From: Kangiella aquimarina DSM 16071
GTDB taxonomy: Bacteria; Pseudomonadota; Gammaproteobacteria; Enterobacterales; Kangiellaceae
DNA length: 64,000 nucleotides
NCBI RefSeq assembly: GCF_000374105.1
Contig: NZ_KB893650.1
Span: forward strand, 1,831,145 to 1,895,144
Reading direction: 5' to 3'
Shown: positions 55,789 to 58,528 of the stretch, piece after piece
How positions within the stretch are numbered: position 1 is the first letter of the stretch
Layout: the number at the start of each line of letters is the position of its first letter
The notes under the pieces: generated by a model
What the model saw: the letters and a program-made list of their open reading frames with translations, nothing else
Told to the model about the DNA's origin: nothing
Database searches by the model: none
Position numbers and translations under genes: made by a program

Positions 55789-57045
55789 CTACAAATACTC
55801 TTTCAAATACTCGTAGTTCGGCGTTAATTGACCTTTGTAGACGATGACTGCATCGGCAAGGTCTTCGGGTAAGCCACATTCCGCGAATGGTTTACTCAAA
55901 TCCATTTGCATGATTTGCGGTGCGTAGGTGGTTAACGCTTTGGAAAAGTCATTGGAAGCATCAATCGGTAGTTCACACGGCAAGTTATCAATGGACATGA
56001 CGGTGACGCCTTCCCAGCTGATGCCGTCTTTGCTTTCGTCGGTGTCGGCGTTGTAGGTAAAAGCTGGGTTGTCGATGTCGGAAGCTTTAGTAGTGCATTC
56101 GAGGCTGCCGTTAATGTCGCAGCTGATATCGCCAATCACTAATGGCAGTTTATCTTTGTTTTGCTGCATACGGTCTTTGGTCAGGTGTTTTGGGTACATC
56201 TCTTCCCAGTATGGGGTTTGCAGCAGGATGTTAAACTTACCCAAGACTTTGTCGAATGTACTTTCATACAACTCGGTACCCTTGGCAACGAATTCTTTCA
56301 TGTTGAATTCGCCACCGTCTTTGCGACGGTTAATATGGCGGCTGCTCAAGACAGCATAGAAGCTACCTTCAGGTAAGTTACCTGCCAAAAAGTCTTTGGC
56401 ACTGACCTTTGGCAAGCCTAACCATTCACACACCTCAATTGACCCTTTACCAACTTTGCCCGTTCCCACCACCAGTGCACGAATAGGTTCACCTTTGGAA
56501 AGGTCAATTCCTTCAAGGGTTTCTTTCAGATGTTCTACCGTTCCATAGTTATAGGTCATTTTGAGATCAGACAAGGGTGTGGTTAAGCCTTTCTGCGCCA
56601 ACTTCTCACCCAAAATTGAAAAGCTATCCACTGCACCAGCAATACCGGCGTAACGACCAAACGCAATGGTTCTTTGCCCAGTAGCGGGATCGACGATTGG
56701 CTCATAGTCAAATAGCGTTGCTTCTTCATCCAGAAACTTCTTCAACAACGGCATGTTGTAGTCCTGACCTTTGATAGTGTGCGAAAAGGCTAAGTGCACC
56801 TGACCGTGTTTGATGGAATCAACGGGAGGCTCTTTGATGCCTAAAACGAATTCTGCTTGATCTGGTGAAGATGGATAGATGGCGCCGGCGGCTTGGTATT
56901 CTTGGTCTGGAAAGATGCGGATATCGCAGGGTTCTAATTCAATGGAGAGGCCTTGTTCGGTTAATGTTTTTACGGCCTTTGGTGTTAAAGGGGCTCGTTT
57001 CTCCCACTTGTTCTTATGTTCTTTTCGAATAATCGTTTTAAGCAT
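55789..57045 (-). CDS. Stand-alone lysine-ketoglutarate reductase (AASS/LKR-like)
   Basis: The 418-residue protein matches the lysine-ketoglutarate reductase half of animal and plant AASS/LKR-SDH: WEKRAPLTPK, FSHTIKGQDYNMPLL, RTIAFGRYAGIAGAVD, VVGTGKVGKGSIEV (NAD(P) loop), QTPYWEEMYPKHLT, GDISCDINGSLECTT, and SIDNLPCELPIDAS. It would condense lysine with 2-oxoglutarate to saccharopine, in lysine breakdown. The saccharopine-dehydrogenase half, fused in eukaryotes, is missing and no partner is nearby. A saccharopine-cleaving enzyme elsewhere is implied. Confidence 0.85.
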   Translation of the reverse strand: MLKTIIRKEHKNKWEKRAPLTPKAVKTLTEQGLSIELEPCDIRIFPDQEYQAAGAIYPSSPDQAEFVLGIKEPPVDSIKHGQVHLAFSHTIKGQDYNMPLLKKFLDEEATLFDYEPIVDPATGQRTIAFGRYAGIAGAVDSFSILGEKLAQKGLTTPLSDLKMTYNYGTVEHLKETLEGIDLSKGEPIRALVVGTGKVGKGSIEVCEWLGLPKVSAKDFLAGNLPEGSFYAVLSSRHINRRKDGGEFNMKEFVAKGTELYESTFDKVLGKFNILLQTPYWEEMYPKHLTKDRMQQNKDKLPLVIGDISCDINGSLECTTKASDIDNPAFTYNADTDESKDGISWEGVTVMSIDNLPCELPIDASNDFSKALTTYAPQIMQMDLSKPFAECGLPEDLADAVIVYKGQLTPNYEYLKEYL

Positions 57046-57116: not shown

Positions 57117-57449
57117 CTAGTCGTCGGCGTTGTCTGATTGATCCACATCAATCGTCTTTGAATCAATCAGATGCCCTTGTTGGCGTAATCGATCGTTTGC
57201 GGACTGTCCTTCAAACTCACTGCGTATTTTTTTGCCGGTCTGGATTTCACCTGAAGCAGAAATAGTAAAAGGCTCATCGCTAGCATTGTGGCGTGCGTTA
57301 TAAAGCATAATCGCCTGCATGCAGTTTTCGCGCTGTGCTTCTGAAACTGCGCTGCCATCGGGCCACTTGCCCGTTTCAACGGCTTCAGTAAAACGCTCAA
57401 TGAGGTCGGGTGTTAATGAATCAACCAGTTGACTGTAATCAATTGACAC
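57117..57449 (-). CDS. YeaC-like DUF1315 protein
   Basis: The 110-residue protein (SIDYSQLVDSLTPDLIERF, then AVETGKWPDG, ENCMQAIMLYNARHN) resembles E. coli YeaC of DUF1315, a small family of unknown function. The C-terminus is acidic (DQSDNADD). A GTG at 57447-57449 with GGAG nine bases upstream is preferred to an upstream TTG (57497) that adds 16 residues. Located between the reductase and the ion-channel genes, same strand. Confidence 0.72.
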   Translation of the reverse strand: MSIDYSQLVDSLTPDLIERFTEAVETGKWPDGSAVSEAQRENCMQAIMLYNARHNASDEPFTISASGEIQTGKKIRSEFEGQSANDRLRQQGHLIDSKTIDVDQSDNADD

Positions 57450-57549
57450 GACAAAAGTCTCCACAACCAATGTTGTCTGAAACAAAATTGGGCGCAATTA
57501 TCCTCGATTTTGTTATGAGTTGCCAGTATCAAAAAGTATCAGCACTAAC

Positions 57550-58350
57550 CTATTGTTTTTCGTGCATTTCCTTTTCTATTTCTTGTAACTGCTTACGAAT
57601 GAGCACGATATTGTTCAAAATATGAGCTTCTGTCTTTTGACTGCGTTCCATCGCTTTCTTCTGTTCCTTCACTTCATCGAGATTATTCAGCACTAAAGCG
57701 ATAAACAAGTTAATGATGATGAAGGTACCAATTACGATAAAACTGACATAAAACATCCAAGCCCAGGTGTGATTGGCTAAATCGAGGTACATAACCTGTG
57801 TCCAGCCCTCAAGGGTCACAATGCGGAACAAGGTCAACATGGAGGTTCCAAGATCGCCCCAGAATTGAGGGTTTGTTTCATGGAATAAATTAAAGCCCGC
57901 GACAGCATAGATGTAGAAGAGAACTAGCATCAGCACCACCACATGGAACATAGAGGGGATGGTTTTGATTAACGTTGAAACAATAAGGCGCAGCTCTGGC
58001 AAGACTGAAATTAAACGGGCTACCCGTAAAAGACGTAGCAAACGACCTATCACAGCAAATTGCCCGGTCATTGGTATCAATGCGACAACAACAATCGAAA
58101 AATCAAAGACATTCCAGCCATCTTTAAAATATTTCTTAATATCTGGGGCGCATGCGTAAAGCTTGAGAACGACCTCTATAACGAAAATACCAAGAATCAC
58201 TGCATGGGCTGTTTCAATCCAACTGACATGAGTTTGCGAAAGCGCCCTACTGGTTTCGAGCCCGATTAAAATACCGCTTAAAACAATTACAGAAATAATA
58301 AAGCGTTCGAACCATTTATTGTGTACTAAAGCAATTACCCTTGCGTGCAT
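57550..58350 (-). CDS. BacNav-type voltage-gated cation channel
   Basis: A 266-residue single-domain voltage-gated channel, one quarter of a tetramer. It shows S1-S3, an S4 with Arg every third position (GRLLRLLRVARL), S5, a pore with TLEGWTQ (179-185), S6, and a C-terminal coiled coil (NNIVLIRKQLQEIEKEM). In NaChBac and NavAb the filter is TLESW; here Ser is replaced by Gly. The ORF extends 36 codons upstream without a helix; the ATG at 58348-58350 matches the start of known channels. It would admit Na+ or Ca2+ on depolarisation. Confidence 0.9.
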   Translation of the reverse strand: MHARVIALVHNKWFERFIISVIVLSGILIGLETSRALSQTHVSWIETAHAVILGIFVIEVVLKLYACAPDIKKYFKDGWNVFDFSIVVVALIPMTGQFAVIGRLLRLLRVARLISVLPELRLIVSTLIKTIPSMFHVVVLMLVLFYIYAVAGFNLFHETNPQFWGDLGTSMLTLFRIVTLEGWTQVMYLDLANHTWAWMFYVSFIVIGTFIIINLFIALVLNNLDEVKEQKKAMERSQKTEAHILNNIVLIRKQLQEIEKEMHEKQ

Positions 58351-58528
58351 AGTTTTTGTCTTTTTCTTGGAATCATGACTGACAGGCGAAATTACCAGTA
58401 AATAAGGGTTCAGGCAACGACTAAAATGTAACGACAGCTTGCCACACATCGGCTTCAAGCAAGAACAGGCCTATTTATTCGAAACAATTTATAGAAATTG
58501 GCTATCAGAAGTAAAACCTGTCAGCCTT

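Follow-up and report, generated by a model that had tools for sequence, protein, structure and literature searches.

CavMr from Meiothermus ruber is the sole prokaryotic Ca2+ channel identified, according to the JGP 2026 text. Its filter is TLEGWVD, and the portion of the eLife 2020 report used here gives a PCa/PNa of 218, the values for CavMr being those of its G240A form and the values for NavPp those of its T232A form. The ratio was 11.9 in the G4S mutant, 7.7 in G4D, and 40.1 in V6T. Asp7 was dispensable: D7M kept a ratio of 144. NavPp from Plesiocystis pacifica, with the filter TLEDWTD, is mildly Na+-preferring and blocked by Ca2+ (PCa/PNa 0.31), and its D4G mutant reached 41.4. From these values, G4S lowers PCa/PNa of CavMr 18-fold and D4G raises that of NavPp approximately 134-fold. 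CavMr-V6T and NavPp-D4G (ratios of 40.1 and 41.4) share the filter TLEGWTD, and their PK/PNa values were 0.69 and 0.81, so that they distinguish monovalent ions poorly. A glycine beside the acidic site of the filter was proposed to accompany Ca2+ selectivity in one-domain channels (Channels 2023, as far as the text used here extends); this acidic site of CavMr is an aspartate according to that article and a glutamate in the eLife filter.

Glycine alone is insufficient to make a Ca2+ channel, because NavAb-S178G, which has the TLEGW sequence, excludes Ca2+: it is Li+-preferring, with a PLi/PNa of 2.18 and a PCa/PNa below 0.01 (JGP 2026, in the part used here). The same source indicates that Met181 of NavAb, at position 7 of the filter, is also important, since the M181A mutant is about 10-fold Ca2+-preferring; NaChBac has Ser at this position. 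No Kangiella channel was found in the open-licence literature, although the figures of group members in eLife 2020 may include Kangiella.

The channel gene and its neighbourhood

The window is the whole stretch of 64,000 nucleotides of Kangiella aquimarina DSM 16071 that was analysed (contig NZ_KB893650.1, positions 1,831,145 to 1,895,144). It contains a channel gene with the filter TLEGWTQ at 57550-58350 on the minus strand. The features are as follows; filter positions are counted from the Thr of TLEGWTQ.

57550..58350, minus strand: channel gene, 266 aa, ATG start, with an S1-S4 voltage sensor, an S5-P1-filter-P2-S6 pore, and a long C-terminal helix (ORF, Ion_trans profile, AlphaFold2 monomer, PDB fold matches)
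57796..57816, minus strand: selectivity filter TLEGWTQ, residues 179-185 (codons ACC CTT GAG GGC TGG ACA CAG)
57805-57807, minus strand: GGC codon of Gly4, Gly182 (sequence)
57823..57825, minus strand: Arg176 in pore helix 1, three residues N-terminal of the filter (residue census)
57781..57783, minus strand: Asp190 in pore helix 2 (residue census)
57697..57699, minus strand: S6 residue Ala218, matching NaChBac Gly229 and CavMr Gly240 in position (register partly from PDB 6vwx coordinates)
57117..57497, minus strand: DUF1315 protein, directly downstream of the channel (profile match; kept beside the channel in other loci)
55789..57045, minus strand: alanine dehydrogenase/PNT-domain (AlaDh/PNT) protein, next after the DUF1315 gene (profile match; kept in place)

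The ORF spans 57550-58458, and an in-frame ATG at 58350 gives the protein of 266 residues; the coordinates in the earlier note extend from this ATG to the stop codon. The TTG start at 58458, corresponding to a 302-aa frame, was dropped in favour of this ATG, at which the orthologues align. The Pfam profile Ion_trans (PF00520) matched residues 47-267 of the TTG frame with an E-value of 7e-50 and a score of 169.9 bits, compared with the curated cut-off of 25. S4 carries four Arg residues at every third position (GRLLRLLRVARL). In the AlphaFold2 model (mean pLDDT 87.1), the two pore helices and the long C-terminal helix are predicted; this model is a monomer and carries no information on selectivity. 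The PDB fold matches, among the matches listed, are by title NavAb and NavAb mutants, including CavAb. The profile match, the S4 arginines, and the filter codons thus confirm the voltage-gated channel with a TLEGW filter that the earlier note had recognized. One other Ion_trans gene (L002) is present in the same genome.

We take Ala218 to be in register with Gly229 of NaChBac and Gly240 of CavMr, partly on the basis of the 6vwx coordinates. Ala occupies this place in 82 of the 137 short-spacing loci (spacing is described below). The G229A mutation of NaChBac slows inactivation, and G240A of CavMr leads to larger and longer-lasting currents (eLife 2020, in the part used here). Ala218 therefore suggests that the channel inactivates slowly.

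The channel gene is present in 11 of the 20 genomes of the genus, its own included, and the other ten proteins are 66-98% identical to that of the window. A twelfth match, in G001 (E-value 3.4e-7, 25% identity), was left out of this count. The closest named record is L125 from an uncultured Kangiella sp. (69% identity), which is the same as the L009 protein over the alignment columns kept. The order of the channel, the DUF1315 gene, and the AlaDh/PNT-domain gene is kept in 10 of 10 other genus loci and in L125. The last of these genes is presumably saccharopine-dehydrogenase-like. Among 109 loci of a further scan, both neighbours were found only at L125, which is a weak negative because the flanks covered at most 1.5 to 4 kb. 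The dN/dS of the channel was 0.008-0.052 in five pairs, with dS of 0.6 to 2.3, partly near saturation. This means that the channel is under strong purifying selection over the gene as a whole, position 4 not being singled out. Because 11 of the 20 genomes hold the gene with the same neighbours and this low dN/dS, it is not a chance ORF.

The protein might be channel-like but silent, perhaps sensing voltage on behalf of some other process. In Sf9 cells, just two of four ancestor-like channels gave detectable currents, and none was reported for those of Halomonas and Teredinibacter in the portion of eLife 2020 used here. However, a missing current in insect cells says little, and the filter, the S4 arginines, and S6 are intact under purifying selection; we regard a silent protein as very improbable.

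Filter position 4 and coupled pore residues

Within the genus, the filter is TLEGWTQ in the window channel, L004, L009, and L011, TLEGWTE in L010, L012, and L013, and TLEGWTK in L008 alone. The remaining three, L005, L006, and L007, have TLESWTQ. These Ser4 orthologues are 89-92% identical to the window channel with its Gly4. The Gly codons at position 4 are GGC or GGT and the Ser codon is AGC; in other words, GGC and AGC are one transition apart.

Outside the genus, the class sample comprised 369 genomes including the window's own, of which 99 had a channel match at 1e-20. All but one of the 109 matches outside its own genome were read, the partial 147-aa match of G336 being dropped. Of the 108 class loci outside the genus, 54 have Asp at position 4, 50 have Ser, 3 have Gly, and 1 has Asn. 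The nearest 16 of them (L017-L032) all have TLEDWTD. This differs from the earlier note, which had implied that NaChBac and NavAb were the nearest relatives: the nearest loci have Asp4, not Ser. The glycine that it regarded as the feature of CavMr is indeed so, as shown by the published TLEGWVD filter and the effect of G4S.

The named genomes supplied 80 loci. One of these is from Kangiella, and the distinct others new to the class sample have Asp (62), Gly (12), or Asn (2) at position 4; one of the two patterns used in this search was biased toward Asp or Gly. The Chloroflexota phylum sample was seeded from a genome with a TLEGWVD channel, and 19 of its 350 genomes matched at 1e-25. Gly4 was found in 22 of 22 loci read, five of them with TLEGWTD, while six named Chloroflexota loci (L133, L135, L136, L143, L166, and L168) have TLEDWTD instead. 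The Burkholderiales order sample, whose starting genome was also chosen for TLEGWVD, had matches in 39 of 349 genomes; Gly4, mostly in TLEGWAE, was found in 13 of the best 30 of 40 matches. These counts depend on the choice of samples and are not frequencies. Gly4 is thus recurrent in the broader channel group, with 44 distinct proteins outside Kangiella, mainly from the purposely sampled Chloroflexota and Burkholderiales, and is uncommon in the class sample.

Several loci deserve separate mention. Five Chloroflexota channels (L216, L217, L218, L219, and L221) have naturally the TLEGWTD filter of the CavMr-V6T and NavPp-D4G mutants, and the TLEGWVD filter of CavMr itself occurs in L144 (Dehalococcoidia) and L155 (Burkholderiales). 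L097 (TLEGWSE) and L116 (TLEGWST) of the class sample have the canonical spacing and might be natural counterparts of NavAb-S178G, without Met7. Contig 18 of G090 carries two different channels approximately 3 kb apart, L021 (TLEDWTD) and L056 (TFEDWTD).

The pore residues around position 4 were compared in 253 sequences, which reduce to 241 distinct proteins (11 from Kangiella and 230 others); Fisher p-values from these counts ignore relatedness and are descriptive only. Every one of the 121 distinct Asp4 proteins, whatever its spacing, has both Asp7 and an Arg three residues before the filter, and Thr6 and Asp7 occur together in 114 of 114 with short spacing. The 49 distinct short-spacing Gly4 proteins have Thr6 in 28 cases and Asp7 in 13. 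At the place of Arg176, the 44 non-Kangiella Gly4 proteins have Gln (22), Asn (20), or Arg (2), and all 57 non-Kangiella Ser4 proteins have Gln, with Met7 in 51 of them. Arg together with Gly4 or Ser4 is seen in the 11 Kangiella proteins and elsewhere only in L144 (Asp7) and L227 (Thr7). Position 7 in Kangiella is Gln, Glu, or Lys, and neutral Gln7 is found in 7 of the 11 distinct proteins. Asp190 is present in all 11 and in none of the 230 others. When Gly4 was tested by independent pairs for association with the loss of Asp7, the supported pairs numbered four, which is too few (median p 0.25).

Judging from these residues, the pair of Arg and Asp7 may prop the Asp4 filter, and Kangiella may have a partly converted pore, in which Asp4 would have been replaced by Gly and Asp7 by Gln, Glu, or Lys, with Arg kept and Asp190 gained. 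The contrast between Arg-Asp4-Asp7 and Gln/Asn-Gly4-variable position 7 offers a concrete hypothesis for an effect of the scaffold.

Pore spacing, phylogeny, and the Gly/Ser exchange

The spacing between the filter and S6 in the 241 distinct proteins was 39 in 172, 40 in 59, at least 58 in 8, and another value in 2. This measure is useful but imperfect: the filters of L255 and L259 fall in the class of spacing 39 although their pore helices look canonical. The window channel has a spacing of 39, as do all Kangiella and most Asp4 proteins; the 59 distinct proteins of spacing 40 have Ser4 (56) or Gly4 (3). Eight channels (L176, L177, L178, L183, L186, L191, L200, and L201) have a long post-filter loop with spacing of 58-61, like the loop reported for CavMr, and four of the eight have at least two Cys residues in it. 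They belong to Verrucomicrobiota, Nitrospinota, and Bdellovibrionota. Two Cys residues between the filter and S6 were found in none of the 137 short-spacing loci.

The channel tree was calculated from 72 of 199 proteins, with the filter columns removed and with close relatives and long branches thinned; a further protein comparison used 102 of the 199, thinned for close relatives. In the 72-row tree, the Kangiella clade (100/99) lies within the short-loop clade (100/97) and adjoins a set of 47 rows, mostly TLEDWTD (90/84). Six long-loop rows form a separate branch (96/87). Four canonical-type rows split off (100/100); the NavAb, NaChBac, CavMr, and NavPp sequences themselves are not among the 72 rows. 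By this topology, the window channel branches apart from the canonical TLESW-type rows, as is characteristic of the ancestor-like bacterial Nav group (AnclNav). An origin of Gly4 in Kangiella separate from that in Betaproteobacteria is favoured only, because holding the two groups together was not rejected (AU p 0.40).

In the protein tree the Ser4 rows of Kangiella form one group (99/81), as they do when three flanking genes are used to build the tree (93/100). In the tree of channel DNA alone, the window channel, L004, and L005 come together (50/18), that is, L005 joins the Gly4 pair; when flanks and channel were joined, the Ser4 grouping had support of 59/72. None of the groupings tested as rivals to a single Ser4 origin could be rejected: the AU p-values were 0.10 and 0.17 with the flanks, 0.25 and 0.38 with the joined data, and 0.45 with channel DNA. 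A single Gly-to-Ser change within Kangiella is favoured, though not proved.

This exchange might mean that position 4 is near neutral, Gly and Ser having been exchanged by drift and both forms conducting alike. The high identity of the two forms, their separation by one transition, and the variability of position 7 would fit this reading. On the other hand, the gene as a whole is under strong purifying selection, albeit with position 4 not singled out, Asp4 is invariably accompanied by Thr6 and Asp7 in the short-spacing proteins, and the published G4S and D4G mutations change PCa/PNa strongly in CavMr and NavPp. Drift at position 4 is thus considered unlikely. Kangiella channels with Gly and Ser, with the same gene order and under purifying selection, represent a natural swap at the disputed residue.

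Predicted ion selectivity and comparison with known channels

The suggestion of the earlier note that the channel conducts Ca2+ or is of mixed selectivity stands as the best prediction, because the two published TLEGWTD mutants were Ca2+-preferring; it does not follow from the glycine alone, as NavAb-S178G demonstrates. By analogy with these mutants, the window channel would be a cation channel that is built as a homotetramer and opened by depolarisation, from the ancestor-like group of TLEDWTD type, in which Kangiella has Gly for Asp4 and has lost Asp7. Gly would widen the mouth of the filter, so that the ring of Glu181 would be exposed to hydrated divalent ions. The expected PCa/PNa would be of the order of ten to tens, with Na+, K+, and Cs+ poorly separated. 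We lean to this Ca2+ preference with mixed permeation, because the window channel has Gln7 at the place of NavAb Met181 and a different pore spacing, and judge it about as probable as all other readings together. Several points besides NavAb-S178G weigh against it. The charge near the filter may be lower than in NavPp-D4G, since Arg176 is kept but Asp7 is lost, and one orthologue has Lys7. The three Ser4 orthologues could reflect a site tolerating drift. In addition, no measured channel with a pore spacing of 39 was found, the NavPp, Halomonas, and Teredinibacter channels being outside this comparison.

Alternatively, the channel might be Na+-permeable, the glycine reshaping only monovalent selectivity as it does in NavAb-S178G. 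The neutral Gln7 of most Kangiella proteins, together with Arg three residues before the filter, is consistent with such a channel. In a pore search of solved sequences, moreover, the one stretch of the canonical Na+ channel NaChBac scored 84 bits and the best single stretch of Cav3.2 (domain I) 43.8 bits. Cav3 entries rank first in this search because four domains are summed, and a special likeness to Cav3 was dropped. Kangiella is a marine genus, which would also suit Na+ permeation. Against this reading, M181A makes NavAb Ca2+-preferring and Kangiella has Gln, Glu, or Lys at position 7 with another spacing; this argument is indecisive, because NaChBac, a Na+ channel, has Ser7. In both ancestor-like backgrounds described in eLife 2020 (in the part used here), furthermore, Gly4 was associated with Ca2+ preference. 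We regard this Na+ reading as rather unlikely, though a serious competitor.

If the channel prefers Ca2+, its role in the cell might be voltage-triggered Ca2+ entry. The Na+/Ca2+ exchanger family (PF01699) is present in 20 of 20 genomes of the genus, therefore incoming Ca2+ could be removed. Flagellin (PF00669) was found in none of these 20 genomes, therefore flagellar control by the channel is unlikely, and a link to motility was dropped. A second exchanger is present in exactly the five genomes of the sub-clade of the window channel (G000, G002, G004, G010, and G012), with at least four PF01699 matches versus two in the other genus genomes. It was not retained as evidence linked to the channel, since it may be one event in the tree and does not track channel presence.

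It is possible, though tentative and somewhat doubtful, that Kangiella evolved its own Ca2+-preferring channel from a Na+-type TLEDWTD pore by replacing Asp4 and Asp7, keeping Arg, and adding Asp190, and that one sub-lineage went back toward Na+ by the Gly-to-Ser change. If true, Kangiella would provide the second native Ca2+ channel of prokaryotes, one that comes with its natural control, and the dozens of Gly4 channels of Chloroflexota and Burkholderiales would likewise count as Ca2+ channels.

The window channel shares the six-helix, one-domain fold with NavAb and NaChBac. The canonical BacNav, however, have TLESW, Met or Ser7, a spacing of 40, and Gln in pore helix 1, whereas the window channel has TLEGW, Gln7, 39, and Arg176; it is thus not a canonical BacNav. 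NavAb-S178G (LivAb) has the same TLEGW, but in a canonical pore with Met7. Domain I of the T-type channel Cav3 also has TLEGW and aligns with the window filter without a gap; Cav3 is a four-domain eukaryotic channel with other filters in its other domains.

CavMr and NavPp, neither of which is named among the 60 chains listed per PDB search, were compared through published numbering and mutants, the spacing and tree position of NavPp lying outside this comparison. The filter of NavPp is the same as that of the nearest relatives of the window channel. The two channels differ in Asp4/Asp7 versus Gly4/Gln7, and TLEGWTQ corresponds to the NavPp-D4G filter with Asp7 changed to Gln. CavMr has TLEGW with Gly4 like the window channel, but Val6/Asp7 instead of Thr6/Gln7; with Thr6, the window channel lacks the Val6 on which the highest Ca2+ selectivity depends. 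The spacing is 39 in the window channel and 57 in CavMr, calculated from its T183 and G240; by this value CavMr would resemble the long-loop rows. An L6 extension with a disulfide is reported for CavMr in the part of the literature used here, whereas the window channel has no Cys pair, and by its pore-loop length it lies outside the structural subtype of CavMr. With the same five letters, CavMr prefers Ca2+ and the NavAb mutant Li+, and the Kangiella Gly/Ser pair bears on what the pore scaffold contributes beyond glycine.
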